Assembly: GCF_003333315.1 (NCBI RefSeq)
Contig: NZ_PSYR01000001.1
Location: 1,328,501-1,392,500, forward strand
Reading direction: 5' to 3'
Length of the DNA: 64,000 nt
Source: Acidiferrobacter thiooxydans
GTDB lineage: Bacteria; Pseudomonadota; Gammaproteobacteria; Acidiferrobacterales; Acidiferrobacteraceae
Shown here: positions 2,625 through 58,564 of the stretch, in pieces
Numbering within the stretch: position 1 is the first letter of the stretch
Layout of the letters: each line of letters opens with the position of its first letter
Translations under genes and position numbers: made by a program
Notes under the pieces: model-generated
What the model saw: the letters and a program-made list of their open reading frames with translations, nothing else
The model's database searches: none
Told to the model about the DNA's origin: nothing

Positions 2625-2921
2625 ATGGAACGTCAGGTTCGTGCTCAATATACCGCCGATTACAAGGCGCAGGCAGTGTCATTGGCAGAGAGCCTCGGAG
2701 CGGCAAAGGCTGCCCGCAAGCTCGGTATTTCGGTCAAGACGCTGGCTAATTGGATCCGCATTTCGCGTGATGGAGCAGGGTTCGCCAAGGACGGGAAGCG
2801 CCGTCCTGTGAGCGATGTGGAAGCTGAGAATGCACGGCTTCGAGCCGAGAATGCTCAGCTGCGCATGGAGCGCGATTTCATAAAAAAAGCCGCAGCGTAC
2901 TTTGCGAAGGAGTCCAAGTGA
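2625..2921 (+). CDS. IS3-family transposase OrfA
   Basis: OrfA is the 98-residue DNA-binding subunit of the IS3-family transposase. Residues 8-55 form the helix-turn-helix (YTADYKAQAVSLAESLG, ARKLGISVKTLANWI), followed by a leucine-zipper-like coiled coil (VEAENARLRAENAQLRMER) that mediates multimerisation. The ATG start is preceded by GGAGGT. OrfA ends overlapping the orfB GTG start by four bases. Near its end lies the A7 run at which ribosomes can shift to produce the fused OrfAB transposase. OrfA alone typically represses or modulates transposition. Confidence 0.93.
   Translation: MERQVRAQYTADYKAQAVSLAESLGAAKAARKLGISVKTLANWIRISRDGAGFAKDGKRRPVSDVEAENARLRAENAQLRMERDFIKKAAAYFAKESK
2882..2888 (+). 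other. Programmed -1 frameshift slippery run (A7)
   Basis: Seven adenines at the FIKKA codons near the end of orfA, in the position where IS3-family elements slip -1 into orfB to make OrfAB. The same run is at 58525-58531 in copy 2. Use of the site is inferred from the family. Confidence 0.7.
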
Positions 2922-3811
2922 AGTACGCCTATATCGCCTCGCAGCGGACTCACTACCCGATCGGGTTCATGTGCCGGGTACTTGAGGTATCGACGTCGGG
3001 ATTCTTCGCCTGGCAGGCCCGAGAACGTGCGCCACAGAGCGACGCGGACGCTCCGTTGCGTGCAGCGATCATACAGGTCCACGAGGAAAGCCGGCGCCGC
3101 TATGGTCGCCGGCGCCTCACGCATGCCCTGCGCGCACAGGGCATGCGCATCAACCCCAAACGTGTGCATCGAGTGATGCGCGAGGAAGGCTTGCGAGGCG
3201 TGCGTAAAGGGCGCTTCGTGCCGCGCACGACCGACAGTGCCCATCAGCGCGCCATCGCCCCGAACGTCCTACAGAGGCGATTTAGCGTCGACACAGCCGT
3301 GCCGGCCTGGACAAGCGACATCACGTACGTTGCCACTCGTGAGGGCTGGCTGTACCTGGCGGTGATTATCGCCTTACAGACACGCCAGGTGCTCGGCTAC
3401 AGCCTCTCGGATCGCATGCCCGATGAGCTGGTGCTCAATGCGCTGCGCAATGCCTGCCATCTCCAGACACCGCCATCCGGTACGGTGTTTCATTCCGACC
3501 GCGGCAGCCAGTACGCCAGCGATGATTTCCGCAACGCTCTCGGCGCACTTGGCATGGTGGCCAGCATGAGTCGCAAGGGAAATTGCTGGGACAATGCGGT
3601 CTCGGAGAGCTTCTTCGCAACACTGAAGACCGAAGAAGCGACCGAGCCGTATGCGACAAAACAGGACGCCCACAGAGCGATCGCGCAATACATCCACGGA
3701 TTCTACAATCCTGTCCGCCTGCACTCATCACTCGGATACTTGTCGCCCAACGAGTATGCGCGCAGAATGCAACACCCAGATCAAGACCCGTCTATGAGGT
3801 CCGCTGCGTAG
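2918..3811 (+). CDS. IS3-family transposase OrfB (DDE catalytic subunit)
   Basis: This 297-residue frame carries the HTH_21/rve integrase core. The catalytic triad is visible as D in WTSDITYV (about residue 132), D in FHSDRGSQYAS (about 193) and E in WDNAVSESFFATLK (about 229). The C-terminal YNPVRLHSSLGYLSPNEYA block is diagnostic of IS3-family OrfB. It is probably expressed mainly as a frameshift fusion with OrfA; the GTG start overlapping the OrfA stop (GTGA) could also allow low-level independent initiation. The reading frame is intact, so the element is likely competent. Confidence 0.95.
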   Translation: MKYAYIASQRTHYPIGFMCRVLEVSTSGFFAWQARERAPQSDADAPLRAAIIQVHEESRRRYGRRRLTHALRAQGMRINPKRVHRVMREEGLRGVRKGRFVPRTTDSAHQRAIAPNVLQRRFSVDTAVPAWTSDITYVATREGWLYLAVIIALQTRQVLGYSLSDRMPDELVLNALRNACHLQTPPSGTVFHSDRGSQYASDDFRNALGALGMVASMSRKGNCWDNAVSESFFATLKTEEATEPYATKQDAHRAIAQYIHGFYNPVRLHSSLGYLSPNEYARRMQHPDQDPSMRSAA

Positions 3812-22060: not shown

Positions 22061-23674
<1,614 letters not shown>

Positions 23675-24829
23675 GGCGGGCGCGCCCGGTCGTGACGGGC
23701 GAGTAGGGTCGGTAGATCGACGGCGCGCAGCCCGCGCGCCTGCAAGCCCCGCAGGAGCCCCGGCAGGACCGTCTCCAGGACCGGCCGCCCGGCATAATCG
23801 CGCGCGTTGCGGCCATCATGCAGCAAGAGCACGGCGCCGGGCATAAGCCCCCGTGACAATCGTCGGGCGATGCGCGCGGGTGCCGGGTCTTGGGTGTCGA
23901 AGGCGCGGTGCGACCAGGCGGCATAGTGCAGGGCGCGCTCGGCGAGCAGCGGCGCAAGCCAGGGGTTGCGGAACCCGAGTGGGGCCCGAAAGCATGATGG
24001 TGCCCGGCCGCTTACGTCGGCGAGCAGGTCTTGGGTGTCATCGATCTCGCGCGCCAGGCGGCGCGATCCAAAGAGCGCGAAGCGGGGGCTATGGTCCCAG
24101 CTGTGGTTTTCGATACTATGGCCGGCGCCTACGGCGGCGCGTATGAGGTGCGGCGCCTGGCGGGCGCGGCGGCCGATACAAAAGAAGCTGGCGCGGGCGT
24201 CATACTGGGCGAGCAGCGTGAGGATGCGCGGGGTGAGCGTCTCGTCTGGTCCATCGTCGAAGGTCAGCGCCACCTGGGGTTCGGCGGTGGCCACACGGGT
24301 GATGACAGGGCCAAGGAATGAGCAGCGCGGACACAGGCAGGACGCCGTCAGCGCCGCCTGGGTCGCGGCGATCGCCGCCACGGCCGGGATGGCGGCCACG
24401 GCATGCCAGGCAGCCCCGGCGGCCAGCAGGCCATCGAGGGCGTTGACGGCCTGAAAGACGTGGCGGGCATCGAGGCGCGCCATTACGGGCCCCCGGGCGG
24501 CCACCGGACCGGGCGGGGGCGGCAGGGCCATGGCGCCCCGTGCGATGGGAGAACGGGGCCTATGCCCCCCATGGGAGTAGTCTGATGCATGAGTGTAAGC
24601 CGGTTGACCGTCATCTGCGACGGGTCGAGGCCCTGATATCCCTAGGGCGCGTCATGACCGGGGCTTCCAGGGTGAGGGGTGCACGGATGGGGGCTTGGCA
24701 TGGCATCGACGCTACACGGATTCGCGGGAGGCGGCAAGGAATGGCGGGCCCGACGATGAAAGGCGCGGCACCGGGAGACCCGGACGGAGGCCGCGCGCGC
24801 AGGCCTTCGCGAGAGGTCGTGTTGAGCGC

Positions 24830-25768
24830 ATGAGGATCTTCTATTATCCGGCGGATCGACGTCAGGAACTCGAGGGTCGGGGTGATATCCTCGGGGTCGT
24901 GGGTTATGGGACCCCGGCGACCTGGCAGGGGCGTGCGCCCTATGTCGCCACGGCCCTGGTGCCCATGGGGCCCCCGATGTATGAAGTGATCGCCGGGGGC
25001 CCGGCGATATCGGCGACACGCGAGGGCGTCCACTACGCCCACGACGGCGAGTGGCTGTTCGCGGCGGTCGCGCTCGGGGCCCGTGAGCCAATGGCGTCGG
25101 TCGCGGCCGAGGCCTATGGACGCATCCTGCGCGTCGCCGAGGGCGAGGGTTACGGATACCTGATCCGTGCGTGGCAGTATTTTCCGGACATTCATGGCCT
25201 AGACCAGGGGCTCGAGCGGTACCGGCAGTTCAATCGCGGTCGCCACCAGGCCTTGGAGGGCTATCTGGCGCGCGGCGGGCTGCGCCCCGCGGCGACCTGC
25301 ATCGGTGCCCCGCGCGGCGATCTGACACTGCATGTACTGGCGCATCGCACCCCCGGTCTCGCCATCGAGAACCCGCGACAGGTCAGTGCCTACCGCTATC
25401 CCGACATCTATGGCCCGCGCCCCCCGGATTTCGTGCGCGCCATGAAGGTGGCCAGTGCCGGCCGCGGGTGGTTGTGGATATCGGGCACGGCGGCGATCGT
25501 CGGCCATGAAAGCCAGGCCCCCGGAGACCTGGAGGCGCAGGCGCGCGAGACCTTCGCCAACCTCGATGCGCTCGTGGCGTGCGCGGGCCTCGGGGCGGAC
25601 CGCCAGGTGCTGGCCGTCAAGGCCTATGTGCGCGTCCCGGACGGTGCCCGGCTGTCCTGGCCGCAACCGTGGGGGATGGCGCCGGCCTTGATCCTGCGCG
25701 GGGATATCTGCCGCTCCGAACTCGGCCTGGAGATCGAGGCGGTGGTGGTGGACGGCGAGCGACGATAA
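24830..25768 (+). CDS. Chorismatase (XanB2/FkbO/Hyg5-type)
   Basis: Chorismatases cleave chorismate to pyruvate and a hydroxybenzoate (3- or 4-hydroxybenzoate) or a dihydroxy acid. These serve as aryl starters for xanthomonadin-type pigments or polyketides. The 312-residue protein begins MRIFYYPADRRQE, with ILGVVGYG near residue 25. It shows the family's central YLIRAWQYFPDIHGLDQGLERY (as YLIRAWQYFPDI and GLERYRQFNRGRHQALEGY) and GWLWISGTAAIVGHESQAPG near residue 215. It is first in a gene string for an aryl-polyene-like product, so it probably supplies the aryl head group. Upstream in-frame codons are arginine-rich, so the ATG at 24830 is the likely start. Confidence 0.8.
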   Translation: MRIFYYPADRRQELEGRGDILGVVGYGTPATWQGRAPYVATALVPMGPPMYEVIAGGPAISATREGVHYAHDGEWLFAAVALGAREPMASVAAEAYGRILRVAEGEGYGYLIRAWQYFPDIHGLDQGLERYRQFNRGRHQALEGYLARGGLRPAATCIGAPRGDLTLHVLAHRTPGLAIENPRQVSAYRYPDIYGPRPPDFVRAMKVASAGRGWLWISGTAAIVGHESQAPGDLEAQARETFANLDALVACAGLGADRQVLAVKAYVRVPDGARLSWPQPWGMAPALILRGDICRSELGLEIEAVVVDGERR

Positions 25769-25777
25769 GGACCGGGC

Positions 25778-26653
25778 GTGGATATCAGGCGACGGGCGCA
25801 AGCACAGCCTATGGGAAGCGAGCTGGCGGCGGATCGGCGGGGCGCGTCATGGGGTGTGCGTCTCGGGTGTATGGTCCTGGGGATGTTTGGGGTCGGCACG
25901 GTGGCGGCCCAGACCGCGCACTACCAAGGCGGTGTGGGGGTGGCCCTCTTCCTGGCGCCTGCCTATCCGGGTTCCGACAGTGAGCGGCTATTCGCCTACC
26001 CCTACCCGTACTGGGACTACGAATCCCCCACGCTGCACCTGCACCACCAACACCTGCGTGCGAAATGGGCCCGTCATTCGTCGTTCAGTATCGGTCTTGG
26101 GGCCAATGGCTCGCCGCCGGCGGCGGCCGGTACACCGGATGCGCGCGCCGGCATGCCGAACCTAGACCCGACCGTGGCCCTGGGGCCGGATATCATGATG
26201 CGCCTCCCCGCGCGCGCCGGCGGCTGGCGCATCTGGCTGGGCGCCCGCGCCCGCTATCGTTGGGCCATGGGCCCCGGCCTGCAGCTTATGCCGCTTGGCA
26301 GCAGCGCCTCGGCGTTCGTCGAATCGCGGACCCCGCGCGGGCGCGTCTGGCCCATTGTGGTAAGCTTTGGCCCCGTTTTTCGCGGCCATGGGGTCAACGA
26401 GTATTTTTTCGGCGTGCCACCAGCCTATGCGGCGGCGGGGCGGCCGGCCTATTCCGCCCCTGGCGGTTATGCCGGGGTACGGCTTACGGCGGCCGTGAGC
26501 ACGCGCGCGGGCCCTTTCGATTTTGCGATCTTCGGGCGCTATCGCAACTACTCGGGTGCGGCGTTTGCATCGAGCCCCTTGCTGAAGGTGTCGAATACGC
26601 TCATCGTCGGGGCGGCGGTGGTATGGGTGTTTGTTCGCTCCGGGGATGATTGA
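25778..26653 (+). CDS. MipA/OmpV-family outer membrane protein
   Basis: Beta-barrel scaffold/porin-like family of the outer membrane. The GTG start is preceded by AAGGA. A signal segment, GVRLGCMVLGMFGVGTVAAQ (residues about 27-46), ends at a plausible AQ-T cleavage. The mature part begins HYQGGVGVALFLAPAYPGS, then alternating strands with YPYPYWDYES, and GRYRNYSGAAFASSPLLK close to the C-terminus; the last residues are aromatic-poor (VWVFVRSGDD), so a terminal F signature is imperfect. It follows the chorismatase by nine bases. Export of the polyene or outer-membrane attachment is a possible role. Confidence 0.75.
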   Translation: MDIRRRAQAQPMGSELAADRRGASWGVRLGCMVLGMFGVGTVAAQTAHYQGGVGVALFLAPAYPGSDSERLFAYPYPYWDYESPTLHLHHQHLRAKWARHSSFSIGLGANGSPPAAAGTPDARAGMPNLDPTVALGPDIMMRLPARAGGWRIWLGARARYRWAMGPGLQLMPLGSSASAFVESRTPRGRVWPIVVSFGPVFRGHGVNEYFFGVPPAYAAAGRPAYSAPGGYAGVRLTAAVSTRAGPFDFAIFGRYRNYSGAAFASSPLLKVSNTLIVGAAVVWVFVRSGDD

Positions 26654-26728
26654 TGATGGCGCTATGAGCGATCGGGTGGCAGGTCCGGCGCGTACGGAAT
26701 ATGGCTTAGGTTTCGAGAGGATAGCGGA

Positions 26729-26995
26729 GTGAATAGCAGGCAAACCGATTTTGAGCGTGAGATTGCGCAGCTGCTCGTGAGCAGCCTGAACCTGGCGCTC
26801 GATGCGGACTCGATCGATCCCGAGGCCCCGCTGTTCCGCGAGGGTCTGGGGCTCGATTCGATCGACATGCTGGAGATTGCGTTGGCGATCTCCCAGCATT
26901 ACGGTATCCAATTGCGATCCGATGACCCGGAGAACGCCGTCATCTTCGCATCCCTGCGGGCGCTCGCCGCGACCATCGGCGCGCGCCGGACCTAA
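26729..26995 (+). CDS. Acyl carrier protein
   Basis: An 88-residue ACP that carries the growing chain through a phosphopantetheine arm. The attachment serine is in LFREGLGLDSIDMLEIALAI (GLDS-I-D-M), and the following helix has VIFASLRALAATIG. The GTG start at 26729 has an AGGA-type ribosome binding site. It is the dedicated ACP of the biosynthetic cluster, not the fatty-acid ACP, because of its position between MipA and the acyltransferase. Only one ACP is visible; aryl-polyene systems often have two, so another may lie elsewhere. Confidence 0.88.
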   Translation: MNSRQTDFEREIAQLLVSSLNLALDADSIDPEAPLFREGLGLDSIDMLEIALAISQHYGIQLRSDDPENAVIFASLRALAATIGARRT

Positions 26996-27044
26996 AAAAG
27001 GCACGGACTGCGGTTTTTTGGGGTACGGTGGGTAAGGGACGGCG

Positions 27045-28066
27045 ATGGCCCAGGCGTGGTTTGAAAAGCGTGAGCGCGGCAGCCGCTTCGGGCTGCGCGC
27101 GGCGCGGATCCTGGCGCTGCGCCTGGGACGGCGCACGGCGCGCGTCCTGTTGTGGCCGATTACCGCTTATTTCTTCTGGGCCCTGCCCGAGGGCCGTGCC
27201 GGCCTGCGCCGCTACTATCAGGCCTTGGACGGCCAGCAACCCACACGCGCGCGCCTGTTCGGTCATTACCTGACCTTTGCGCGCACGATCCTAGATCGCG
27301 TCTATTTGCTGGCCCGGCATCGCGACGCGCCGCGTTACGAGATTCGCGGCTTCGAGGCGGTCGCTTCGTACCTGGACCACGGCCAGGGCGTCATCCTGCT
27401 GGGCGCGCATATGGGCAGTTTCGAGGCCGCGCGCGCCGCCGCGTTTTTGCGCCCGGAGCTGAAGATCCAGGTCATCATGCATACCGGGGTATCGCGCAAA
27501 TTGGCCGAAGTCCTGACGGTCCTACAGCCCGAGGCGCGGGATTCGATCGTACCTTTGGGGGGCCGGCGTCGTTACTGCGGGTACGCGAGTTTCTCGCGCA
27601 GGGGGGCCTGGTGGGGTTCATGGGCGATCGCACCATCGCCGGCGAGACCACCTATCCCGCTGATTTCCTGGGGGCGACGGCGCCATTCCCGCTGGGACCT
27701 TTGCGGCTTGCAGCCGTCCTGCGCGCCCCGGTATTCTTCTTTACCGCGCTCTACCGCGCGGCGGCCGACGGTGTGTGCCGCTATGAATTGGTATTCGAAC
27801 CGCTGTGCGGTCCGGCCCCGGACGCAAAGGCGCGTGAGGAATGGATGCGACAGCTGGGGGAGCGCTATGCGCAAACCCTGGGGACGTTCTGTCGCCTGGC
27901 CCCCGACAACTGGTTTAATTTTTATGACTTCTGGCAAACCCCGGACGGGGATTCGTTTCGCCGCAGCGCTGCTCGCGATCCTGACGACCGGGATGGCCCG
28001 CGCGGCCAGTCGCCCATGGACGGTCCCGATGCTGCTAAAGACCCTGGCGCACACGGTGACCCATAA
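27045..28066 (+). pseudogene. LpxL-like acyltransferase, frameshifted in a G6 tract
   Basis: The N-terminal half (27045 to about 27560) reads as a HtrB/LpxL-type lipid acyltransferase, with the HX4E catalytic motif in LLGAHMGSFEAARA. After a run of six G at 27557-27562 the continuation is in another frame: GGPASLLRVREFLAQGG, FMGDRTIAGETTYPADFLG and DNWFNFYDFWQTP, typical of the family's C-terminal end. A single added or missing G explains the shift. Aryl-polyene clusters contain such an acyltransferase, believed to anchor the aryl polyene to the membrane. Whether the shift is real, an error, or phase variation is unresolved. Confidence 0.75.
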
Positions 28067-28505
28067 GGTGCGGTTTATCGAGGTCAATCACCTGGCGAGT
28101 CTGCGGCGCCCCGTGCAGGCGCATGGCACGCTCCAGTATGAGAAGCCCGATACCCTCATCATGACCCAGAGCGCGCCGCGCAAGGCCGTATACCGGATCG
28201 TCGGTGACCGGCTGTTTGTCAATCAGGCCCGCCGGGGAGTACCGGTCAGCCGTTATCCCGGCGTGATCGCCATGGTGTCCGGGTTCGAGGGGCTTTTGAG
28301 CGGGAACTACGCCTTGCTCACGCACGATTTCCACGCGCGCCTGCAGGGGGATCGCAAGGCCTGGCGACTGCTGCTGCGCCCACGTCTTGCCGCCTTGAAG
28401 CGGGCCCTGGTGAGTGTCGCGATCAGTGGGCATGGGGCGCGTCTTGCAGAGATCGTGACCCGCGCCCCGAACGGTGATAGCTCGGATATGCGCATCCTTC
28501 CGTGA
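27924..28505 (+). CDS. LolA-like outer-membrane lipoprotein carrier-type protein
   Basis: A 193-residue periplasmic-type protein. The ATG at 27924 overlaps the acyltransferase C-terminus, and a signal-like hydrophobic segment follows (GIRFAAALLAILTTGMARAA). LKTLAHTVTHKVRFIEVNHLA and the segment YEKPDTLIMTQSAPRKAVYR have the shape of a LolA-type half-barrel. Such proteins recur in aryl-polyene clusters and may shuttle the lipid product across the periplasm. It overlaps the exporter by 4 bases (GTGA), so translation is coupled. Identity rests on cluster context plus weak sequence resemblance. Confidence 0.65.
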   Translation: MTSGKPRTGIRFAAALLAILTTGMARAASRPWTVPMLLKTLAHTVTHKVRFIEVNHLASLRRPVQAHGTLQYEKPDTLIMTQSAPRKAVYRIVGDRLFVNQARRGVPVSRYPGVIAMVSGFEGLLSGNYALLTHDFHARLQGDRKAWRLLLRPRLAALKRALVSVAISGHGARLAEIVTRAPNGDSSDMRILP

Positions 28506-30817
28506 ACGCCAGACCAACGGCATTTACGGTGACCGCCGTGTGGCTGGCGGCGTTGGCGATACTGGCGGCGCTGATCGTCCATACCGCGCGCTTTGGAGGG
28601 AGCCTGACGGCGTTTCTGCCGCGATCGGGCAGCACGGTGCAGCGCGCCCTGGTGCACGGCCTTCACAAGGGCGCGGCATCCCGTCTTTTGTTGCTGGCGA
28701 TTCGCGGCGGTACCGGGGTAGCGCGGGCGCGGGCGTCACGGGCGCTCACCCGGCGATTGCGCCGCGATACGCGCGATTTTGCGCTGGTCGCCAATAGCGG
28801 AGCGGCGGTAGCGCGGGGTGTCGAGGGATTTCTGTTCCACGACCGCTATCTGCTGGCGCCGCGCACGTCGTGGACGGTGCCGGCGCTACGCGCCGATCTG
28901 CGGCGTGATCTGGCCATTCTCGAGTCCCCGGCGGGCTTGAGTGCCACCAAGGTCCTGGCCGATCCCACGGGCGCGGTCATGGCCGCGGCCCGGCCCTGGC
29001 GGGGCGCGGCGGGAGGGCCGCGCTCGCGCCATGGCGTGTGGGTGTCGCGCGACGAGCACGCGGCGCTATTGCTCGTGGAGACGCACGCGTCGGGGTTTTC
29101 GGTGGGACCGCAGCGCCGTGCGCTCGGCCTGATCCATGCCGCGTTCGCGCAGGTCGCGGATCATAAGCCGCTGTCTCTGGAGATCGGCGGCACCGGGGCG
29201 ATAACGGTGGCGGCCAATGACAAGGTTGCAGACAGCGCCAAGCGTCTGACGATCATCGACCTCATCTTGGTGGCGGGGATCTTGGGATTCGTCTATCGCT
29301 CGGGACCGCCGCTGCTCGTGAGCCTCGTGCCGCTTGCCAGCGGGGCGATGGTCGCCACCGCGGTCATCGGTTTGGTGTTTCCGAGACTTGCGATCACGAC
29401 GCTCGGGTTTGGCACCATGCTGATCGGCGTGGCCATGGACTACCCGACCTATGTGCTTTTGCATGTTCGGGGCGGGGAGAGCGTTCCGCGCGCGGCACAG
29501 CGCGTGGCGCGCGCCCTGGGACTGGCGATGATCGCCATGGTGATCGGATTTTCCACCATGATCACCTCGCATCTCGCCGGTCTCGTGCAGCTCGGTGTAT
29601 TCGCGGCCGTAGGGCTTGCGGCGGCGGCATTGGCGGCGCGCTATGTCCTGCCGTTCATGATCCCGGCATGGCGTCCGCTCGCCGATCTGTCCGTGTGGGA
29701 CGATCGCGCGGCACGGGTTTCCGCCCGACTGCGTCGTGCGCGCGGTGCGGTGGTGATAGTGGCGTTGGCCGCCATCGGGGTTCTCTGGCAGCACGGCGGC
29801 CACGTATGGGATGACCACCTGTCGGCCTTGAGTCCGGCGTCGCATACCCTCATGCGCGAGACCGGGCGACTTAGCCGGGCGTTCGGAGTGCCGGGGCTCT
29901 CGTCGCTCGTGGTGGTGACCGCCGCCAATCGTGAACGGGCGCTGGTGGCCTCCGCCGCGCTGCGACCGGTATTGGCAAGGCTACGCCGGGAGCGCGCCCT
30001 TGCCGGTTACCGGATGGCGGCCCAATACCTGCCGAGCGTGGCTGTGCAGAGGCGCCGGCAGCGCGCGCTGCCAGCGCCTGCGATCCTGCGCCGGCGACTG
30101 CGCGCCGCGGCCGTCGGCATGCCATTTCGCCTACGCGCGTTTCACGAATTCGTGGCGGCCGTCGCCAAGGCGCGCCACGCGGCCCCGCTACGTCCCGCCG
30201 ATCTGCCGGCACCGATGCGCATGCAAATGGGTGGCCTGCTTATGCGGGTCCATGGGCGGGGTGTGGCGTTCGTGCCTCTATCCGATGTCCGCAATGCCCG
30301 GCGCGTGGCCCGGGCGATACGGGCAAGCGCGGTCGCGGGGGCCCACTATGTGGTGGTGAAGCGTGCCGTGGGGCGTCTCATGGCCGGCTATCGCGCGGCG
30401 CTGTTGCGCCATGCGCTCATCGCCGGGGCGCTCATGGCGGTGGTCATCGCCATCGGTCTGCGATCAGTGCGCGAGGCCACGCGCCTTGTGCTGCCGATGG
30501 CCGCGGCGATCGTGACCACCTGTGCCTTGCTGGTGATGACAGGTCCGGGCCTCACGCTTTTGAACCTCGTGGCCTTGCTGCTCATTGCCGGTCTTGGCAT
30601 GGGCTACGCGCTGTTTCTCGGGGAGCATGGGCTCATCGCCGAACGCCGGCCGCTTGCGCCCTGGGTATGCGCCGCCACCACCATAACCGGATTTGGGGTC
30701 ATGGCCACGGCGCCTGTGGCGATGTTGCGCTCGGTAGGCCTGACCGTGAGCCTGGGGGCGCTGCTCGCGCTGCTCTTTACCGCCGCCTGGTCCTTGGGCG
30801 CGTCGCGGGCCTCATGA
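28502..30817 (+). CDS. MMPL/RND-family lipid exporter
   Basis: A 771-residue inner-membrane exporter for the polyene or its lipid conjugate. It has an N-terminal transmembrane helix (AFTVTAVWLAALAILAALIV), a periplasmic loop of about 220 residues, a bundle around residues 255-390 (LTIIDLILVAGILGFVYR; LGFGTMLIGVAMDYPTYVLL; IAMVIGFSTMITSHLAGLVQ), a second large loop, and a second bundle (LIAGALMAVVIAIGL; LLNLVALLLIAGLGMGYALFLGEHG). Conserved aspartate AMDYPTY is the usual proton-relay type residue. GTG start; its stop overlaps the ketosynthase ATG, so the operon is tightly coupled. Confidence 0.85.
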   Translation: MNARPTAFTVTAVWLAALAILAALIVHTARFGGSLTAFLPRSGSTVQRALVHGLHKGAASRLLLLAIRGGTGVARARASRALTRRLRRDTRDFALVANSGAAVARGVEGFLFHDRYLLAPRTSWTVPALRADLRRDLAILESPAGLSATKVLADPTGAVMAAARPWRGAAGGPRSRHGVWVSRDEHAALLLVETHASGFSVGPQRRALGLIHAAFAQVADHKPLSLEIGGTGAITVAANDKVADSAKRLTIIDLILVAGILGFVYRSGPPLLVSLVPLASGAMVATAVIGLVFPRLAITTLGFGTMLIGVAMDYPTYVLLHVRGGESVPRAAQRVARALGLAMIAMVIGFSTMITSHLAGLVQLGVFAAVGLAAAALAARYVLPFMIPAWRPLADLSVWDDRAARVSARLRRARGAVVIVALAAIGVLWQHGGHVWDDHLSALSPASHTLMRETGRLSRAFGVPGLSSLVVVTAANRERALVASAALRPVLARLRRERALAGYRMAAQYLPSVAVQRRRQRALPAPAILRRRLRAAAVGMPFRLRAFHEFVAAVAKARHAAPLRPADLPAPMRMQMGGLLMRVHGRGVAFVPLSDVRNARRVARAIRASAVAGAHYVVVKRAVGRLMAGYRAALLRHALIAGALMAVVIAIGLRSVREATRLVLPMAAAIVTTCALLVMTGPGLTLLNLVALLLIAGLGMGYALFLGEHGLIAERRPLAPWVCAATTITGFGVMATAPVAMLRSVGLTVSLGALLALLFTAAWSLGASRAS

Positions 30818-32013
30818 TGGAAGACGGTCTCGCCATCACGCACTATACGCTCACGAGCGCCTTCGGCCGCGGCCTCGCCGCCCAGCGCGCCGGGCTCATG
30901 AGCGGGCGGTCGATGCTGGTTCCGCATACCCTGGCGGACGGGACGGCGTGCATGATCGGGCAGGTCGCGGGTCTGGAGGAGGTGGTCATGCCCGCGGCCC
31001 TGACACGCTATGATTGCCGCAACAATCGCCTCGCGCGGTTTGCGCTCGACGCCGATGGCTTCGCGCAGGCGGTGGGCGCGACTGCGCGCCGCGTGGGCGC
31101 CTGGCGTATCGGGGTGGTGATCGGCACGAGCACCTCGGGGATCGCCGCCACCGAGGCGGCCTATCGGGCCCCGGTCTTTCAGGGGCCGGGGGCACTGCCG
31201 GTCGATTTCCCGTACCGCGAGACCCACAATGTGTTTTCGTGCGCGGACTTCGTGCGCCGCTATCTCGGTGTGAAAGGCCCGGCGCTGGTGGTGTCGACGG
31301 CGTGCTCATCGAGTGCCAAGGCGTTCGCCACCGGCGCGCGGCTCATCGCCTCCGGTGTCTGTCAGGCGGTGGTGGTGGGCGGCGTCGACAGTCTCTGTGA
31401 TACCACGCTTTATGGCTTTCATGCGTTGAATCTTTTGTCCCGGACGCATCCCCGGCCGTTCGATGCCGACCGCGATGGGATTGCGATCGGCGAAGCGGCG
31501 GGATTTGCGCTCCTCGCGCCGGCCGGAGATTGTGGCGAATCCCGAGGATTGCGCCTGGTGGCCACCGGCGACAGCGCGGATGCCTACCACATGACCGCCC
31601 CGCATCCCGAGGCACGGGGGGCGCGCGCGGCGCTGGAGGCGACCCTCACGAGCGCCGGCTGGCGACCGGACACGGTCGACTATGTGCACCTGCATGGCAC
31701 CGGGACTGCGCACAACGATGCCGCCGAAGATCTGGCGCTGATGCGCGTGGGTCTTGGTGCGGTCCCGGCGAGCTCCACGAAGGGGGCCATCGGGCATACA
31801 CTGGGGGCCGCGGGTATGTGCGGGGTGGTGTTGACGGCTGAGGCCATGGCTGCGGGATTCCTGCCGGGGACCGTCGCTACGCGATTGCCCGATCCGCGAT
31901 TCCGGTCGCGTCTGCTGCTTTCAGGCGAGAGCGGCGCAATCCGCCGGGCCTTGGTCAATACCTTCGGATTTGGCGGCAGCAATTGCTGTCTCGCGCTCGC
32001 ATGGCGCCCGTGA
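30814..32013 (+). CDS. Beta-ketoacyl-ACP synthase (FabF-type ketosynthase)
   Basis: This enzyme condenses the aryl starter and malonyl-ACP units. The ATG at 30814 overlaps the exporter's stop. The 399-residue protein has the full catalytic set: Cys in VVSTACSSSAKAF (about residue 168), His in HLHGTGTAHNDAAED (about 300), and Lys/His in STKGAIGHTLGAAGM (about 330). NTFGFGGSNCCLAL closes the fold. It sits in a polyene-type cluster beside a ketosynthase-like partner, the usual pair for aryl-polyene chain building. No ketoreductase or dehydratase gene is in the window. Confidence 0.9.
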   Translation: MMEDGLAITHYTLTSAFGRGLAAQRAGLMSGRSMLVPHTLADGTACMIGQVAGLEEVVMPAALTRYDCRNNRLARFALDADGFAQAVGATARRVGAWRIGVVIGTSTSGIAATEAAYRAPVFQGPGALPVDFPYRETHNVFSCADFVRRYLGVKGPALVVSTACSSSAKAFATGARLIASGVCQAVVVGGVDSLCDTTLYGFHALNLLSRTHPRPFDADRDGIAIGEAAGFALLAPAGDCGESRGLRLVATGDSADAYHMTAPHPEARGARAALEATLTSAGWRPDTVDYVHLHGTGTAHNDAAEDLALMRVGLGAVPASSTKGAIGHTLGAAGMCGVVLTAEAMAAGFLPGTVATRLPDPRFRSRLLLSGESGAIRRALVNTFGFGGSNCCLALAWRP

Positions 32014-32807
32014 ACATATATGTTGCCGGATGGGGCGTCCTGGGTCCGGGCCTTCCGGACGCGCAAGCGGCGCGCGCCCTATTAGCAGGGGAGCGGGCTT
32101 ATCGGCATGACAGGGTGCGCATGCCGCTCGCCGAGGGACTTTCCGCCAATGAGGCGCGGCGCTGTCCGATGTCCGCGCGCTATGCCCTGGATGTCGGACG
32201 GCAGGCCTTGCGCGCCGCCGGCTGGGACCCGGCGGGGGTGGCTACGGTGTTCAGTTCCGCAAGCGGCGATCTCGAGATCGCCGACAAGAACTGCCGGGCC
32301 TTGGCGCAGCCGCCGATCGCCCTGTCGCCGACCCTGTTTCACAACTCCGTGCATAACGCCGCCGGGGGCTACTGGGGGATCGCGACCGGCTCGCGGGCGC
32401 CTACGACCAGTCTGTCTGCCTATGATGACAGCTTCGCCGCCGGCCTGCTCGAGGCCTTGACCACGGTCGGCCCCGGCCGCGCGTGCCTCTTGATCGCCTA
32501 CGACCTCTCACCGCCTGCGGCGTTTGCCGCAGTACGCGGGATTACCGCACCGTTTGCCGTGGCGCTGGCCCTGACCGCTGAGCGGCCACCGGGGTGGTGC
32601 GCGATGTTGTCGTGGGAATGGGGGTACTGTGAACCAGCCGCCGACATCCCCATGTCGGATGCCGCGCTCGAGGCCCTGCGTGTCGCCAACCCGGCCGCGC
32701 GTAGCCTGCCGCTTTTGCGTACGCTCGGCCTCCAGCAGGATGGGATCCTGTCATGGCCAGACGCGGGTGGCGGCGCCCTGCGTTTGGCGGTGTCTTTCGG
32801 CCCATGA
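32001..32807 (+). CDS. Ketosynthase-like protein (chain-length-factor type)
   Basis: A 268-residue protein beginning MAPVNIYVAGWGVLGPGLPD, with SSASGDLEIADKNCRAL and the diagnostic FHNSVHNAAGGYWGIATG then TTSLSAYDDSFAAGLLEAL. This is the Ketoacyl-synt_2 type 'beta-ketoacyl synthase N-terminal-like' partner of aryl-polyene clusters. The catalytic cysteine of a true ketosynthase is not in place (N-x-x-H-N-A-A-G-G-Y), so it is probably non-condensing and may set chain length or hold the complex. It overlaps the active ketosynthase by 13 bases. Its function is not established here. Confidence 0.8.
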   Translation: MAPVNIYVAGWGVLGPGLPDAQAARALLAGERAYRHDRVRMPLAEGLSANEARRCPMSARYALDVGRQALRAAGWDPAGVATVFSSASGDLEIADKNCRALAQPPIALSPTLFHNSVHNAAGGYWGIATGSRAPTTSLSAYDDSFAAGLLEALTTVGPGRACLLIAYDLSPPAAFAAVRGITAPFAVALALTAERPPGWCAMLSWEWGYCEPAADIPMSDAALEALRVANPAARSLPLLRTLGLQQDGILSWPDAGGGALRLAVSFGP

Positions 32808-33241: not shown

Positions 33242-33547
33242 TCAGTGATGCCCTTTGACGGCATGCCAAAAGGCCAGTCCGCCGGCCTTGGCGGCATGTC
33301 CGATCGCAAGCCCGACCTTCTTGGCCTCATGCCCGATGGCCAGTCCTACACGCTTGGCCTTGTGCCCGACATCGTGCGCGGCCGTGCCGAGGCTATGGCC
33401 GACATGGCGGGCATCATGGTTCAGGTCTGCCGAGGCGCGCGGACTGGCCATGGCGAAAGAACCGAGAACGACGGCCATGATTATGAGGCGGTGTAGGGCG
33501 TGATCCGGTGGATGGCGCCACGCGCTGCGTCTACGGTGCATAGACAT
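33242..33547 (-). CDS. Small secreted histidine-rich repeat protein
   Basis: A 101-residue unknown protein. A signal peptide (LHRLIIMAVVLGSFAMASPRASA, central hydrophobic part IIMAVVLGSFAMA) ends before DLNHDARHVGHS. The mature half is a tandem array of 11-residue units: GHKAKRVGLAI, GHEAKKVGLAI, GHAAKAGGLAF, then WHAVKGHH. Each unit has His/Lys on one face and Gly/Leu/Ile on the other, so an amphipathic helix is likely. Function unknown; a membrane-active, metal- or surface-binding peptide would fit. The start is uncertain (no clear ribosome binding site). It is convergent with the ketosynthase-like gene. Confidence 0.6.
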   Translation of the reverse strand: MSMHRRRSAWRHPPDHALHRLIIMAVVLGSFAMASPRASADLNHDARHVGHSLGTAAHDVGHKAKRVGLAIGHEAKKVGLAIGHAAKAGGLAFWHAVKGHH

Positions 33548-33749
33548 GGTTGCCGTAAAGCCCATTATGGATACGCTTCAGTATAGCAGGATTCGATCCC
33601 GACCAGGAGGAGGGGGAATAGCGCGCGCCGGCCTAAAGCGGCTTGCCGATGGCGATCGGAATGGCTATCGTCGGGCGTTGCCGGGAAACGGGGGGTACGG
33701 CCTATGGGTCGCGCCCCACATTCTTTGGGATGTGAGATCGGGAGGTGTC

Positions 33750-34766
33750 ATGACGAAATCGATCAAGGCCTGGGCCGCGACCGGCCCTGGCAAGCCGTTT
33801 GAGCGCTTTTCCTATGATCCGGGTCCGCTCAAGGCCGACGAGGTGGAGATCCAGGTCGAATATTGCGGACTCTGCCATTCAGACCTGTCGATGTGGCAAA
33901 ACGAGTGGGGCCTATCCACCTACCCACTGGTGCCGGGTCATGAGGTGGTCGGTCGGATCGTGGCATGCGGCGGCGAGGTGCGCGGGCTCGCCGACGGACA
34001 GCGCGTGGGCCTTGGATGGTTCGCGCGCAGCTGCATGCATTGTGCGCAGTGCATGGCCGGCGACCATCACCTATGCCCTGCGGCGGAGGCGACCATCGTC
34101 GGGCGCCACGGAGGTTTCGCCGAGCGGGTGCGCTGTCACTGGGCATGGGCGGTTCCGCTGCCCGAGGCCTTGCCGTCGTCTTCGAGCGGGCCGCTTTTTT
34201 GTGGCGGGATAACGGTGTTTAGTCCGCTCATGGAGCTTGGCGTGCGTCCCGTCGATCGTGCCGGGGTAGTGGGCATCGGTGGATTGGGGCACCTTGCCCT
34301 GCAATATCTGCGCGCCTGGGGCTGTGACGTGACCGCCTTTACCTCGCATGCCGGCAAGGCCTCGGACCTTGAGTCTCTGGGCGCCCACCGAGTCGTGGCG
34401 AGCACCGATGAGCGCGCCTTGACGGACATGACAGGCTCCCTGGACCTGCTCTTGGTGGCCACCAGCGCACCGCTCGATTGGCCGCGCTTCCTAACGACCC
34501 TCGCGCCGCGCGGTCAGCTCCATTTCGTGGGCGCGGTACTAGAGCCGCTCAACATCGGGGCGTTCAGTCTCATAGCCGGGCAAAAGTCGGTGTCGGGATC
34601 GCCATTTGGTCGCATCAGCACGCTCCGGCACATGCTGGATTTCAGTAAGCGCCATAATGTTGCGCCCATCGTCGAGCATTTCCCCATGAGCCGCGTGAAC
34701 GATGCGCTCGATCATCTGCGGTCTGGTAAGGCGCGTTATCGGATCGTACTGGACCCCGATTTCTGA
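33750..34766 (+). CDS. Zinc-dependent alcohol dehydrogenase (YahK/CAD-type)
   Basis: A 338-residue NAD(P)-dependent medium-chain dehydrogenase that oxidises alcohols or reduces aldehydes. The ATG at 33750 has GGAGGTG. The catalytic zinc ligands are in YCGLCHSDLSMW and PGHEVVGRIVA. The structural zinc set is CMHCAQCMAGDHHLC. The cofactor fold is VVGIGGLGHLALQYL. HFVGAVLEPLNIGAFSLIAG near residue 275 is typical of YahK-like enzymes. It is between the polyene region and the LuxR gene and not obviously part of either; a role in product modification is possible but unsupported. Confidence 0.9.
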   Translation: MTKSIKAWAATGPGKPFERFSYDPGPLKADEVEIQVEYCGLCHSDLSMWQNEWGLSTYPLVPGHEVVGRIVACGGEVRGLADGQRVGLGWFARSCMHCAQCMAGDHHLCPAAEATIVGRHGGFAERVRCHWAWAVPLPEALPSSSSGPLFCGGITVFSPLMELGVRPVDRAGVVGIGGLGHLALQYLRAWGCDVTAFTSHAGKASDLESLGAHRVVASTDERALTDMTGSLDLLLVATSAPLDWPRFLTTLAPRGQLHFVGAVLEPLNIGAFSLIAGQKSVSGSPFGRISTLRHMLDFSKRHNVAPIVEHFPMSRVNDALDHLRSGKARYRIVLDPDF

Positions 34767-38067: not shown

Positions 38068-39039
38068 TCAGGCGGCGCTGCGGATGAAGGCGTCGGCGTA
38101 GATGTCCTTGAGCGCCGCGCCCGCCAGATACAGGCGTTTTTTCGCAGACTGCACCATGTCAGGATGGCCGCACAGAAAGGTGCGCCAGCCGGCGACGCGC
38201 GGCTGATCGTTCAGGGCAACATCGAGCACGCGCCCGTGACGCAGATCCCCGGTCGGGGCCTCGCGCGACACGCACGGATGGTAGTGGACGGTGGCATGGC
38301 GGTAGGCAAGCGCGCGTAACTCGTCTACGAGGTACAGGCCGTCTTTATGGCGGCTTCCATGGTAGAGACGGATGGGGCCGCGGTGTCCCTGACGCAGGGC
38401 ATCGCGGAGGATGCCGTAGAGCGGCGCGAGACCTGATCCAGTGCCAAGAAGCAGTAGGGGCTGGTCCGGGTCGGACAGCATATAAAAACATTCCCCGAGC
38501 GGCCGGCTGACCGCTACCTGATCGCCGACCTGCAGGGACTCGTGGATCCACCCGCTGACCCGACCTTGTGACACCTTGCGCACATGGAGCGTGAGATGCG
38601 GATCGAGCGCCGGGGCGCTGGCGAGCGAGTAGCTACGGCTTAGCCTCTCGTCCTTGAACACGTTGATGAATTGGCCGGCACGGTAGTCCCCCATGCCCGG
38701 ACACTCGAGGGCCACCGAGACGATCTCGCGGTTCAAAGGCGTGATCGCGCGCACCGTAGCGACAAGTCGCCCGGCGTCCGTGCCAGGATGCTCGACGCGC
38801 ATGGATTGGTGCGGTACGCATTGGCACGCCAGAAAGTAACCGCGTGCGCGCAGCGTGTCCTTCAGGCCCTTTTGGGAGGCCTCAGGGACTTGCCCGTCCA
38901 CGGCGCGCAAAAGGCAGGTCTGGCAGACACCGCTGCGGCACGAGGAGGGGACGCTCTCGCCGCCGCGGGTCAACGCCTCGAGGACGCTTTCGCCATCGGC
39001 GCATGCGTAGGTCTTGTCGCCTAGAAGTATCTCGGGCAT
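38068..39039 (-). CDS. Ferredoxin-type NAD(P)H-flavin reductase
   Basis: A 323-residue electron-transfer protein. An N-terminal plant-type [2Fe-2S] ferredoxin domain has CRSGVCQTC (C-x4-C-x2-C) and the fourth cysteine in FLACQCVPH. A ferredoxin-NADP reductase-type domain follows, with RSYSLASAP (FAD) and LLLGTGSGLAPLYGILRDAL (NAD(P)). It resembles CDP-6-deoxy-delta-3,4-glucoseen reductase-like and phenol-hydroxylase-reductase proteins. It is 15 bases behind a truncated haemoglobin, both under an NsrR-type box. It probably re-reduces that haem protein, working as the reductase half of a split nitric-oxide dioxygenase. Confidence 0.85.
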   Translation of the reverse strand: MPEILLGDKTYACADGESVLEALTRGGESVPSSCRSGVCQTCLLRAVDGQVPEASQKGLKDTLRARGYFLACQCVPHQSMRVEHPGTDAGRLVATVRAITPLNREIVSVALECPGMGDYRAGQFINVFKDERLSRSYSLASAPALDPHLTLHVRKVSQGRVSGWIHESLQVGDQVAVSRPLGECFYMLSDPDQPLLLLGTGSGLAPLYGILRDALRQGHRGPIRLYHGSRHKDGLYLVDELRALAYRHATVHYHPCVSREAPTGDLRHGRVLDVALNDQPRVAGWRTFLCGHPDMVQSAKKRLYLAGAALKDIYADAFIRSAA

Positions 39040-39054
39040 GGGGTCTCCGAAGGG

Positions 39055-39423
39055 TTAGCGGCCGAGGATGTCCGCGCGCGTGCCCTCGCAGATCGCTGCG
39101 ACCTCGTCGATGCTGTCTTGTGGCACGTTCAGTTCGCGCAACGTGGCCGACAGATGGTCTACGATGATGTCAAAGTGCGTGTCGTTCAGGCCGCGCGCCA
39201 CCAGATGGGCATGCCCGCGACGCATGTCGGCCCCTGTGTAATGGTTGGGTCCGCCAAAGGCCATGGTGAGGAAGGCCTTTTGCTTGGCGGCCTGTCTTTC
39301 CATGTCCACGTCGTCGAAGAATCCATTCACGCGGTCGTCGGCCAGGACCTTGCGGTAGAAGATATCCACAGCCACGTTGACCGCCTGTTCACCACCGATC
39401 TTCTGAAACAATGCCTGACTCAT
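39055..39423 (-). CDS. glbN: Group 1 truncated haemoglobin
   Basis: A 122-residue haem protein. FQKIGGEQAVNVAVDIFYRKVLADDRV has the B9-B10 FY pair, KQKAFLTMAFGGPNHYTG the E-helix region, and MRRGHAHLV the proximal histidine. Such haemoglobins detoxify nitric oxide to nitrate or carry oxygen. A GAGGAG ribosome binding site precedes the ATG. The perfect NsrR-type palindrome lies 24-48 bases upstream, and a reductase follows, so nitric-oxide dioxygenation is the best reading. Confidence 0.9.
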   Translation of the reverse strand: MSQALFQKIGGEQAVNVAVDIFYRKVLADDRVNGFFDDVDMERQAAKQKAFLTMAFGGPNHYTGADMRRGHAHLVARGLNDTHFDIIVDHLSATLRELNVPQDSIDEVAAICEGTRADILGR

Positions 39424-39446
39424 GTCGCTCCTCGGTTATCGTATGC

Positions 39447-39471
39447 AAAGATGTATACAATATACATCTTT
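39447..39471 (-). promoter_or_regulatory. NsrR-type operator (perfect palindrome)
   Basis: AAAGATGTATA and its exact complement TATACATCTTT flank three central bases (CAA). This matches the NsrR consensus (AAGATGYATTT-type inverted repeat). It is upstream of glbN, which lies on the minus strand; the nsrR gene itself is about 160 bases away on the other side. Confidence 0.85.
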
Positions 39472-39630
39472 AACGGGACAACCTGCCGGAGGCCTTGAGC
39501 CTCACGAATCAGTCGGCAGGTATGCCCCTACACTAAGACAGGGGGCTTCGTATTGTCAAATATCATTCGACGGGGATTTGACGCGCCTGTACCCCGCACT
39601 CATCATGATCGGGGCTTTTGAGGAGATCTC

Positions 39631-40092
39631 ATGCAGTTGACCCGCTACAGTGACTATGCCTTGCGGATATTGATGTATTTGAGCATGAAGGAGCGCGACG
39701 GTGCGGCCACGATCAGCGAAATTGCCGCCTTTTACGGCATATCGCGCAATCATCTCGTAAAGATCGTGCACCGGCTGGGGCAACTCGGTTTCGTGACGAC
39801 CGCGCGCGGCAAGGGGGGTGGTCTCAAGCTTGCGCGTAGCGCCGCGCAGATCGGCATCGGTGAGGTGATACGCAAGACAGAGGCGCACTTCGACATCGTC
39901 GAATGTTTTGACGTGCAGGCCAATCGGTGTCGCCTGACGCCGATCTGTCATTTGAAAGGCATGCTGGCCGCCGCCCAGGCACAGTTCCTGCGCGAGCTCG
40001 ATGCCTACACCCTGGCGGATGCGATCGCCGGTCGGGATCGGGGATTCGCGTCGCTTCTCGATCGTATCCGGCTCAGCACCGCGGGCGCTTGA
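39631..40092 (+). CDS. nsrR: Rrf2-family nitric-oxide-sensing repressor NsrR
   Basis: A 153-residue regulator with an N-terminal winged helix (MQLTRYSDYALRILMYLSMK) and the recognition region YGISRNHLVKIVHRLGQLGF. The three cysteines in VECFDVQANRCRLTPICHLKG coordinate an iron-sulphur cluster that nitric oxide destroys, releasing DNA. The ATG has a GAGGAG. It faces away from the glbN-reductase pair and its perfect operator. Confidence 0.9.
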   Translation: MQLTRYSDYALRILMYLSMKERDGAATISEIAAFYGISRNHLVKIVHRLGQLGFVTTARGKGGGLKLARSAAQIGIGEVIRKTEAHFDIVECFDVQANRCRLTPICHLKGMLAAAQAQFLRELDAYTLADAIAGRDRGFASLLDRIRLSTAGA

Positions 40093-45460: not shown

Positions 45461-46246
45461 CTACCCGCCATGTCGAAATTCTGGATAGATCAGCATGCCC
45501 CCGTCGACGGCGATGGTGGTGCCGGTGATGTAACTTGCCAGATCGCTTGCCAGGAAGGCCACCACTGAGGCGATCTCGGTGGGGGTACCGAGGCGCCCCA
45601 TGGAAATTTTGTCATCGAGATCCTTGAGCGAATTTGGATCATTCCAGACGTCCTCATTGATCGGCGTCTGGATGGCGCCCGGTGCGACCGCCACCACGCG
45701 GATCGCCTTGTCGGCAGTTTCCTGAGCCAGGGTTTTGGTGAACATCGACAAGCCGGCCTTGGCGCTCGTGTAAGCGCTATAGCCTTCCCAGGGAATGAAT
45801 TCGTGGACCGATGTGATATTGATGATGACACCGCGCCCGGCCTTGATCATATGAGGAAGGACGGTTCGCGCGCAGTAATAGGGTCCGAGCAGATCGACGG
45901 CCAGAACCTTCTGCCAATGCGCGGGATCGTCTTCGCCGACTGGTGCCCTTTGACCGTCGAGGCCCGCGTTATTGACAAGGATGTCAATCCCTCCCAGTGC
46001 CGCGCTGGCTTGCTGCATGAGGGTATTGACGGCGGCGGGATCGGAGAGGTCAGCGGCGAAGGCCTGAGCCTTGCCGCCTTGGCCGGTTATGGTCTTCACC
46101 ACCGTCTCGGCTTCCGCTTGTCCCTTGCGATAATGAACGGCTATCTGAGCGCCCGCCTGGGCCAGCGTTACCGCCATCGCCCGTCCCAGGCCCCCGCTTG
46201 CCCCTGTCACGAGCGCCCGTCGCCCGGAAAGATCTACCGTAATCAT
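45461..46246 (-). CDS. Short-chain dehydrogenase, glucose 1-dehydrogenase-like
   Basis: A 261-residue SDR. Cofactor motif: ALVTGASGGLGRAMAV. NNAG: ILVNNAGLDGQRAP. Catalytic triad: S in IINITSVHEFI, Y-x3-K in AYTSAKAGLSMF. ITGTTIAVDGGMLIYPEF closes it. Glucose/ribitol dehydrogenases have this form, oxidising glucose to gluconolactone. Its start overlaps the glucoamylase stop by 4 bases (ATGA), so the two are coupled; glucose released from alpha-glucan would be its substrate. Substrate is inferred. Confidence 0.85.
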   Translation of the reverse strand: MITVDLSGRRALVTGASGGLGRAMAVTLAQAGAQIAVHYRKGQAEAETVVKTITGQGGKAQAFAADLSDPAAVNTLMQQASAALGGIDILVNNAGLDGQRAPVGEDDPAHWQKVLAVDLLGPYYCARTVLPHMIKAGRGVIINITSVHEFIPWEGYSAYTSAKAGLSMFTKTLAQETADKAIRVVAVAPGAIQTPINEDVWNDPNSLKDLDDKISMGRLGTPTEIASVVAFLASDLASYITGTTIAVDGGMLIYPEFRHGG

Positions 46247-58267: not shown

Positions 58268-58564
58268 ATGGAACGTCAGGTTCGTGCTCAATATACCGCC
58301 GATTACAAGGCGCAGGCAGTGTCATTGGCAGAGAGCCTCGGAGCGGCAAAGGCTGCCCGCAAGCTCGGTATTTCGGTCAAGACGCTGGCTAATTGGATCC
58401 GCATTTCGCGTGATGGAGCAGGGTTCGCCAAGGACGGGAAGCGCCGTCCTGTGAGCGATGTGGAAGCTGAGAATGCACGGCTTCGAGCCGAGAATGCTCA
58501 GCTGCGCATGGAGCGCGATTTCATAAAAAAAGCCGCAGCGTACTTTGCGAAGGAGTCCAAGTGA
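58268..58564 (+). CDS. IS3-family transposase OrfA (copy 2)
   Basis: Identical in protein sequence to the OrfA of copy 1: helix-turn-helix ARKLGISVKTLANWI, then a coiled coil. The A7 slippery run is at 58525-58531. Its identity to copy 1 shows recent spread within the genome. Confidence 0.93.
   Translation: MERQVRAQYTADYKAQAVSLAESLGAAKAARKLGISVKTLANWIRISRDGAGFAKDGKRRPVSDVEAENARLRAENAQLRMERDFIKKAAAYFAKESK

Follow-up and report, generated by a model that had tools for sequence, protein, structure and literature searches.

Within a 64,000-base stretch of the Acidiferrobacter thiooxydans genome (bases 1,328,501 to 1,392,500 of contig 1; 3.25 Mb in 4 contigs), here called the window and numbered from its first base, lies a compact gene block that resembles an aryl polyene cluster. 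An earlier reading of the window (the original prediction) placed eight gene functions in one direction from 24830 to 32807, and this was borne out, since all are on the plus strand with tight overlaps and family matches for each. The block opens with a Hyg5/XanB2-like chorismatase with its active-site Cys present (24830 to 25768; PF21168, 102 bits; TIGR04444, 178 bits), followed by an arcC-type, MipA/OmpV-like outer-membrane protein (25778 to 26653; PF06629, 100 bits) and an acyl carrier protein (ACP) with its Ser in the motif LGLDSID (26729 to 26995; PF00550; NF006617, 122 bits, above the cutoff). An LpxL-like acyltransferase whose frame is broken near 27560 (27045 to 28066; an intact relative in G005, a genome of the same genus, matches PF03279), a LolA-like periplasmic carrier (27924 to 28505; PF19574, 62 bits), and an HpnN-like exporter of the MMPL/RND type (28502 to 30817; PF03176, 31 bits) come next. 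The block ends with an ApeO-like ketosynthase (KS) bearing Cys-His-His motifs (30814 to 32013; NF006618, 435 bits, above the cutoff) and an ApeC-like, chain-length-factor (CLF)-like partner (32001 to 32807; PF13723, 81.5 bits). Overlaps are 4 bases at the LolA/MMPL and MMPL/KS junctions and 13 bases between the KS and its partner; the start codons of the chorismatase (24830), KS (30814), partner (32001), and LolA-like gene (27924, by frame inspection) were placed in this work. Divergent from this operon, on the minus strand, is an arcN-type polysaccharide deacetylase (23623 to 24531; PF01522, 97 bits).

The KS carries TACSSS, HGTGT, and GHTLGAAG motifs, and its top PDB match was 6qsp_A (207 bits); the partner, which has no Cys across the stretch matching the KS nucleophile region, gave 6qsp_B as its top match (51 bits). 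We take 6QSP to be the ApeO:ApeC pair. Judged by sequence, the block therefore holds an active-type KS with a partner lacking the active Cys, as in the type II polyketide synthases of aryl polyenes, and its LolA-like and MMPL genes are the export genes of such clusters. The chorismatase is a component of xanthomonadin- and arcuflavin-type gene sets. Its best PDB match was 5ag3 (138 bits), presumably Hyg5, with FkbO (4bps) at 108 bits, and the Cys in its ICRSELGLEIE stretch aligns with a Cys in 5ag3, a Ser in 5a3k, and an Ala in FkbO (4bps). This Cys matters for the product of the enzyme. The proposal that the block is of the aryl polyene/xanthomonadin type, with the chorismatase as the starter source, was supported by these family and PDB matches and by the gene list of Azoarcus discussed below.

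No ketoreductase (KR), dehydratase (DH), or ligase is present at the locus, as had been pointed out. A short-chain dehydrogenase/reductase at 45461 to 46246 (minus strand) was rejected as the KR of the pathway; it scored 129 bits against the sister-genus KR, compared with 267 bits for the KR described next, and it does not adjoin the cluster in G005. Of the two solutions that had been offered, genes elsewhere or an unusual reduced product, the first was found to hold. When the ligase, DH, and KR of the sister-genus genome G014 were used as queries, the best matches in the window genome clustered at 103,273 to 106,141 of contig 1 (45% identity for the ligase, 37% for the DH [weak, E value of 1e-5], and 58% for the KR), in a single block behind groEL that extends from about 102.4 to 108.4 kb (locus B). 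An unusual reduced product is not needed; without a KR and DH, the product would be less reduced, not more. The order at locus B is groES and groEL (named from their own sequences), a 262-amino-acid membrane protein, an AMP-ligase (PF00501), a FabA-like DH, an ApeP-like DH, and a FabG-type KR (NF004200, 332 bits, above the cutoff), followed on the opposite strand by a family 2 glycosyltransferase (GT2; PF00535) and then a FAD protein of the Trp-halogenase family that contains the motifs GGGPGG and WFWFIP. Locus B, outside the window, thus contributes the KR and DHs of an aryl polyene gene set, the second DH being a weak ApeP match, as well as a putative aryl-activating ligase to go with the ACP of the window and, by family assignment, the halogenase and glycosyltransferase of the xanthomonadin/arcuflavin type. 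The ligase and KS are about 1.25 Mb apart on one contig in the window genome and 1.44 Mb apart in the one-contig genome G005. Since the apparently absent enzymes were found in this second block, the pathway looks essentially complete, and we consider it very probable that the window block is locus A of a two-locus pathway for a yellow aryl polyene pigment of the xanthomonadin/arcuflavin type. Another KS locus, at 626 to 646 kb of contig 2, was rejected as part of the system because it is of the type I KS-acyltransferase-ACP kind, a different system; this region (L090, G000:C2:626000-645900) also encodes an AMP-binding protein, two acyl-coenzyme A dehydrogenases, and a protein resembling beta-ketoacyl-ACP synthase III.

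The division into two loci appears to run throughout the genus of the window, for which 14 genomes (G000 to G013, with G000 the window genome) were compared with three of a sister genus (G014, G016, and G017). In the NCBI taxonomy, Acidiferrobacter belongs to the family Acidiferrobacteraceae of the order Acidiferrobacterales. The KS was present in all 14 genomes and the ligase and KR were present in 13. Gene order behind groEL, from the membrane protein through the halogenase-like gene, was identical in all 13 genomes in which it was readable; in G008 (85% complete) the contig stops about 200 bases past groEL. The next genes were hlyIII- and SprT-like in 11 of the 13, with other DNA between in G005 and G003. 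Of the 13 other genomes, 8 had a locus A readable all the way from deacetylase to KS partner, with no ligase, DH, or KR found in it, and contig ends cut the locus in the remaining 5. The sister genus has a joined cluster, in which RmuC, the divergent deacetylase, chorismatase, MipA, ACP, a small membrane protein, and an AMP-ligase-DH fusion are followed by LpxL, LolA, the exporter, KS, partner, DH, KR, and a glycosyltransferase; G014 and G016 have all of it, and in G017 it is truncated by contig ends. The deacetylase adjoins the chorismatase in 8 of 8 genus stretches and 2 of 2 sister-genus stretches that reach that far, and it belongs to the pathway gene set. At the groEL site of G014, a different open reading frame (ORF) precedes HlyIII/SprT and no locus B genes are present; in G015, a member of the same family with no KS or ligase found, an SprT match lies 185 bases from groEL, again with no locus B genes. 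None of these genes occurred in the 1.8 kb between groEL and the contig end in G016, and groEL was not found in G017. From the comparison of this site in G014, G015, and G016, locus B looks like an arrival specific to the window's genus, with locus A remaining at the ancestral site, that of the joined cluster.

A change in composition after 32.8 kb of the window was considered as the trace of an insertion that split the cluster. This was unsupported, as no KR, DH, or ligase lies there in any of the 8 other genus stretches spanning deacetylase to KS partner, among which G004 covers just 0.6 kb past the partner. Third-position GC was about 0.75 to 0.85 for most ORFs from 7 to 33 kb and mostly 0.55 to 0.77 outside (1 to 7 kb and 32.9 to 64 kb). 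The region 3' of the cluster holds a glycoside hydrolase family 15 glucoamylase-like gene, pyruvate phosphate dikinase, and a pyruvate:ferredoxin oxidoreductase subunit, as well as further genes of metabolism. The zinc alcohol dehydrogenase gene at 33546 to 34766 has a counterpart 3' of locus A in 7 of the 12 other stretches from the genus, and none was found in 3 with several kilobases of flank; it was not counted in the pathway.

Because loci A and B are not physically linked, and general fabG and fabF genes are present at 584 to 586 kb of contig 2, one could suppose that locus A, alone or with FabG/FabZ of fatty acid synthesis, yields some other product, either short or poorly reduced, and that locus B is a separate pathway. 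However, the 19.9 kb read at locus B contains neither a KS nor an ACP, the locus has exactly the functions that are absent from locus A and kept in the single cluster of the sister genus, and ligase and KS co-occur across the order; separate pathways are therefore unlikely. Among the 57 genomes sampled from the order (KS called at an E value of 1e-70 and ligase at 1e-40), 33 had a KS and 33 had a ligase, with both in 30 and neither in 21 (Fisher P = 1.5e-9, not corrected for kinship). Outside the genus, 17 genomes had both, and in 9 of them (G014, G016, G019, G021, G024, G027, G033, G038, and G049) the two lay no more than 25 kb apart on one contig. In the other 8 (G017, G026, G029, G030, G040, G046, G048, and G055) they were on separate contigs of draft assemblies, which neither shows nor excludes a split. 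Purifying selection acts on both loci. The ratio of nonsynonymous to synonymous substitution rates between G000 and G005 (simple Nei-Gojobori) was 0.04 to 0.30 across seven genes of locus A (deacetylase, chorismatase, MipA, ACP, MMPL, KS, and partner; LolA was left out) and 0.08 to 0.41 for seven locus B genes, with GroEL at 0.03 and RmuC at 0.11 as yardsticks (the G005 RmuC reading has one internal stop).

The LpxL-like gene had been listed as a member of the block, and its identity stands by way of the intact G005 relative (340 amino acids; PF03279, 35 bits), which had to be used because the window copy is frameshifted. Here the LpxL-like and LolA-like genes read as a single 486-amino-acid ORF (27045 to 28505), since one base is missing near 27560 relative to G005. 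A natural LpxL-LolA fusion was ruled out by this one-base deficit against G005 (91% DNA identity). Alignment of G002 across the stretch gave a single one-base gap, and the frame was open, at 335 to 349 amino acids, in all seven genus genomes checked (7 of the 9 others with an LpxL-like match). The missing base could signal that the cluster is starting to decay in this strain. Against this, most substitutions past the break still lie at third positions when read in the LpxL frame (18 of 24, compared with 32 of 51 before it), so that the break is either very recent or a sequencing or assembly error in a G/C run. Moreover, seven further genes of locus A were free of internal stops, and E. coli apeD and apeJ mutants retain partial pigmentation (PMC8253772). 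Incipient decay is thus very unlikely.

To consider the descent of the two loci, mean protein identities of the window genome to the sister genus, to the rest of the order, and to named outsiders, respectively, were compared, with matches dropped if their E value exceeded 1e-6 or they covered less than 60% of the query. For locus A these were 52, 39, and 39% for the chorismatase; 52, 33, and 33% for MMPL; 51, 29, and 30% for LolA; 60, 48, and 48% for the KS; and 55, 37, and 41% for the partner. For locus B they were 45, 43, and 44% for the ligase; 58, 60, and 57% for the KR; and 29, 43, and 54% for GT2. The membrane protein, both DHs, and the halogenase-like gene had no sister-genus match within these limits, shorter matches of the first and second DHs falling below the length limit. 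The two genera formed a single clade for the KS (100/100), the chorismatase (96/96), and MMPL (SH-aLRT support of 100, quick tree). In the KR tree and a concatenated locus B tree, the window's genus instead grouped with betaproteobacterial records with moderate support, and the ligase tree left its placement unresolved. In approximately unbiased tests, forcing the two genera together was not rejected (P = 0.24 for the KR, 0.48 for the ligase, and 0.30 for the concatenation), and forcing the genus together with all named outsiders was rejected (P = 0.017 and 1.5e-7). These runs left out L017, L033, and L035 for the KR and L033, L035, and G020 for the ligase; the concatenation had 32 rows, without L017, L033, L035, G020, and genomes lacking the KR or ligase. 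Foreign descent of the ligase, KR, and DHs is therefore unproven. The GT2 of the genus and the glycosyltransferase of the sister genus fell in separate deep clades in a quick tree that carried a long-branch warning. The sister-genus stretches examined showed no relative of the halogenase, and the nearest row for the halogenase-like gene outside the genus was L024, a record titled Polaromonas sp. (63%). The identities and the glycosyltransferase and halogenase genes suggest a foreign origin of locus B, a reasonable suspicion and not a result. The pathway may even be a hybrid, in which a resident half for starter synthesis, chain extension, and export would cooperate with a half for activation, reduction, glycosylation, and halogenation. 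This second half would derive from an arc cluster of betaproteobacterial type, which would have inserted behind groEL in the genus ancestor and taken the place of the resident genes; we entertain this tentatively and do not lean toward it. In L019, a record titled Candidatus Gallionella acididurans, homologues of the chorismatase, MipA, LpxL, LolA, MMPL, KS, and partner lie within 20.4 kb together with those of the second DH, KR, GT2, halogenase-like gene, and deacetylase; that stretch gave no match for the ligase or the ACP.

The two-locus layout is unusual, with a precedent in Azoarcus BH72, in which two unlinked arc loci (for arcuflavin) are both essential for pigment as judged from insertion mutants (PMC3949708). 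This is therefore a known kind of organization, divided differently here. The comparison is one of gene lists, not sequences, and the shared functions are the chorismatase, MipA, polysaccharide deacetylase (arcN), ACP, acyltransferase, LolA, exporter, KS, KS-N-domain partner, two DHs, reductase, AMP-ligase, glycosyltransferase, and halogenase; arcC is annotated there as an MltA-interacting protein. As described in PMC3949708, the first Azoarcus locus has the KS, partner, DH, KR, glycosyltransferase, MipA, chorismatase, and halogenase, and the other has the deacetylase, exporter, LolA, acyltransferase, DH, ligase, and ACP. In the present genome, by contrast, locus A unites the deacetylase, chorismatase, MipA, ACP, acyltransferase, LolA, exporter, KS, and partner, and locus B has the ligase, both DHs, KR, glycosyltransferase, and halogenase; in neither locus was an arcM-like methyltransferase or a second acyltransferase seen. 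The aryl polyene clusters of E. coli CFT073 and Xenorhabdus doucetiae (ApeA to ApeR) share the KS/CLF type (best PDB match 6QSP) and ApeH-, ApeI-, ApeP-, ApeQ-, ApeD-, ApeL-, and ApeM-like functions. They differ in occupying one locus and in that E. coli draws 4-hydroxybenzoate from UbiC (PMC8253772), whereas a chorismatase is encoded here; no equivalent of ApeR, ApeB, ApeK, or ApeN was seen in the two loci. The Xanthomonas xanthomonadin system, compared by its description in PMC3949708, likewise has a chorismatase (XanB2) as starter source and putative AMP-ligase activation, but in one cluster rather than two.

We infer from the genes the following route, and with it the cooperation of the two loci and the product. 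The chorismatase would form hydroxybenzoate (3-hydroxybenzoate and perhaps 4-hydroxybenzoate), which the AMP-ligase of locus B would load onto the ACP of locus A. Chain growth by malonyl units would be the task of the locus A KS/CLF pair, and the KR and two DHs of locus B would convert each unit to a conjugated double bond. Coupling of the chain to a carrier, either a lipid or a sugar, may be aided by the LpxL-like acyltransferase and GT2. The LolA-like and MMPL proteins would then, together with MipA, carry the product to the outer membrane, and the ring may be modified by the halogenase-like FAD enzyme. PMC3949708 describes an Azoarcus BH72 chorismatase that yields both 3- and 4-hydroxybenzoate and a ligase that activates the former, and it cautions against predicting the chorismatase product from sequence alone. 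Several observations weigh against a complete two-locus pathway. The chorismatase scored 178 bits against TIGR04444, below the model cutoff of 325, and its product is therefore not readable from sequence; the ApeP-like DH scored 19.4 bits, compared with a Pfam cutoff of 27; the halogenase-like protein had CmlS as its top NCBIfam score (197 bits), far below the cutoff of 900; and the 262-amino-acid membrane protein had no family match. In this assembly the LpxL-like gene has a frameshift, and in neither locus was a thioesterase, methyltransferase, or LolB-like gene seen (the rest of the genome was not searched for a methyltransferase). At the thresholds used, three genomes of the order had a KS only (G008, G020, and G031; a fragmented ligase appears in G020 at a looser threshold) and three had a ligase only (G034, G053, and G056).

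Elsewhere in the window, transposase genes (rve, HTH_21) at 2918 to 3811 and 58561 to 59454 are equal in length, with identical Pfam scores, and are probably copies of one IS3-type element. At 38068 to 40092, a bacterial-type globin adjoins a 2Fe-2S/FAD oxidoreductase, and the gene for an Rrf2-type regulator points away from both.

A search confined to the window cluster would judge the pathway incomplete, though the genome has the remainder. Throughout the genus a biosynthetic gene set is divided across two chromosomal sites that the sister genus keeps joined, and the order of events can therefore be worked out. Aryl polyenes are not new to acid-loving bacteria (PMC8776678, on Acetobacteraceae genomes, with both terms in its abstract); a literature search of title listings, with most subscription journals outside its coverage, showed no paper tying Acidiferrobacter to aryl polyenes among the titles listed. 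A candidate membrane-pigment pathway is now placed in the Acidiferrobacter group, where, by analogy with the E. coli aryl polyene, for which oxidative-stress protection has been shown (PMC8253772), such protection would be plausible.

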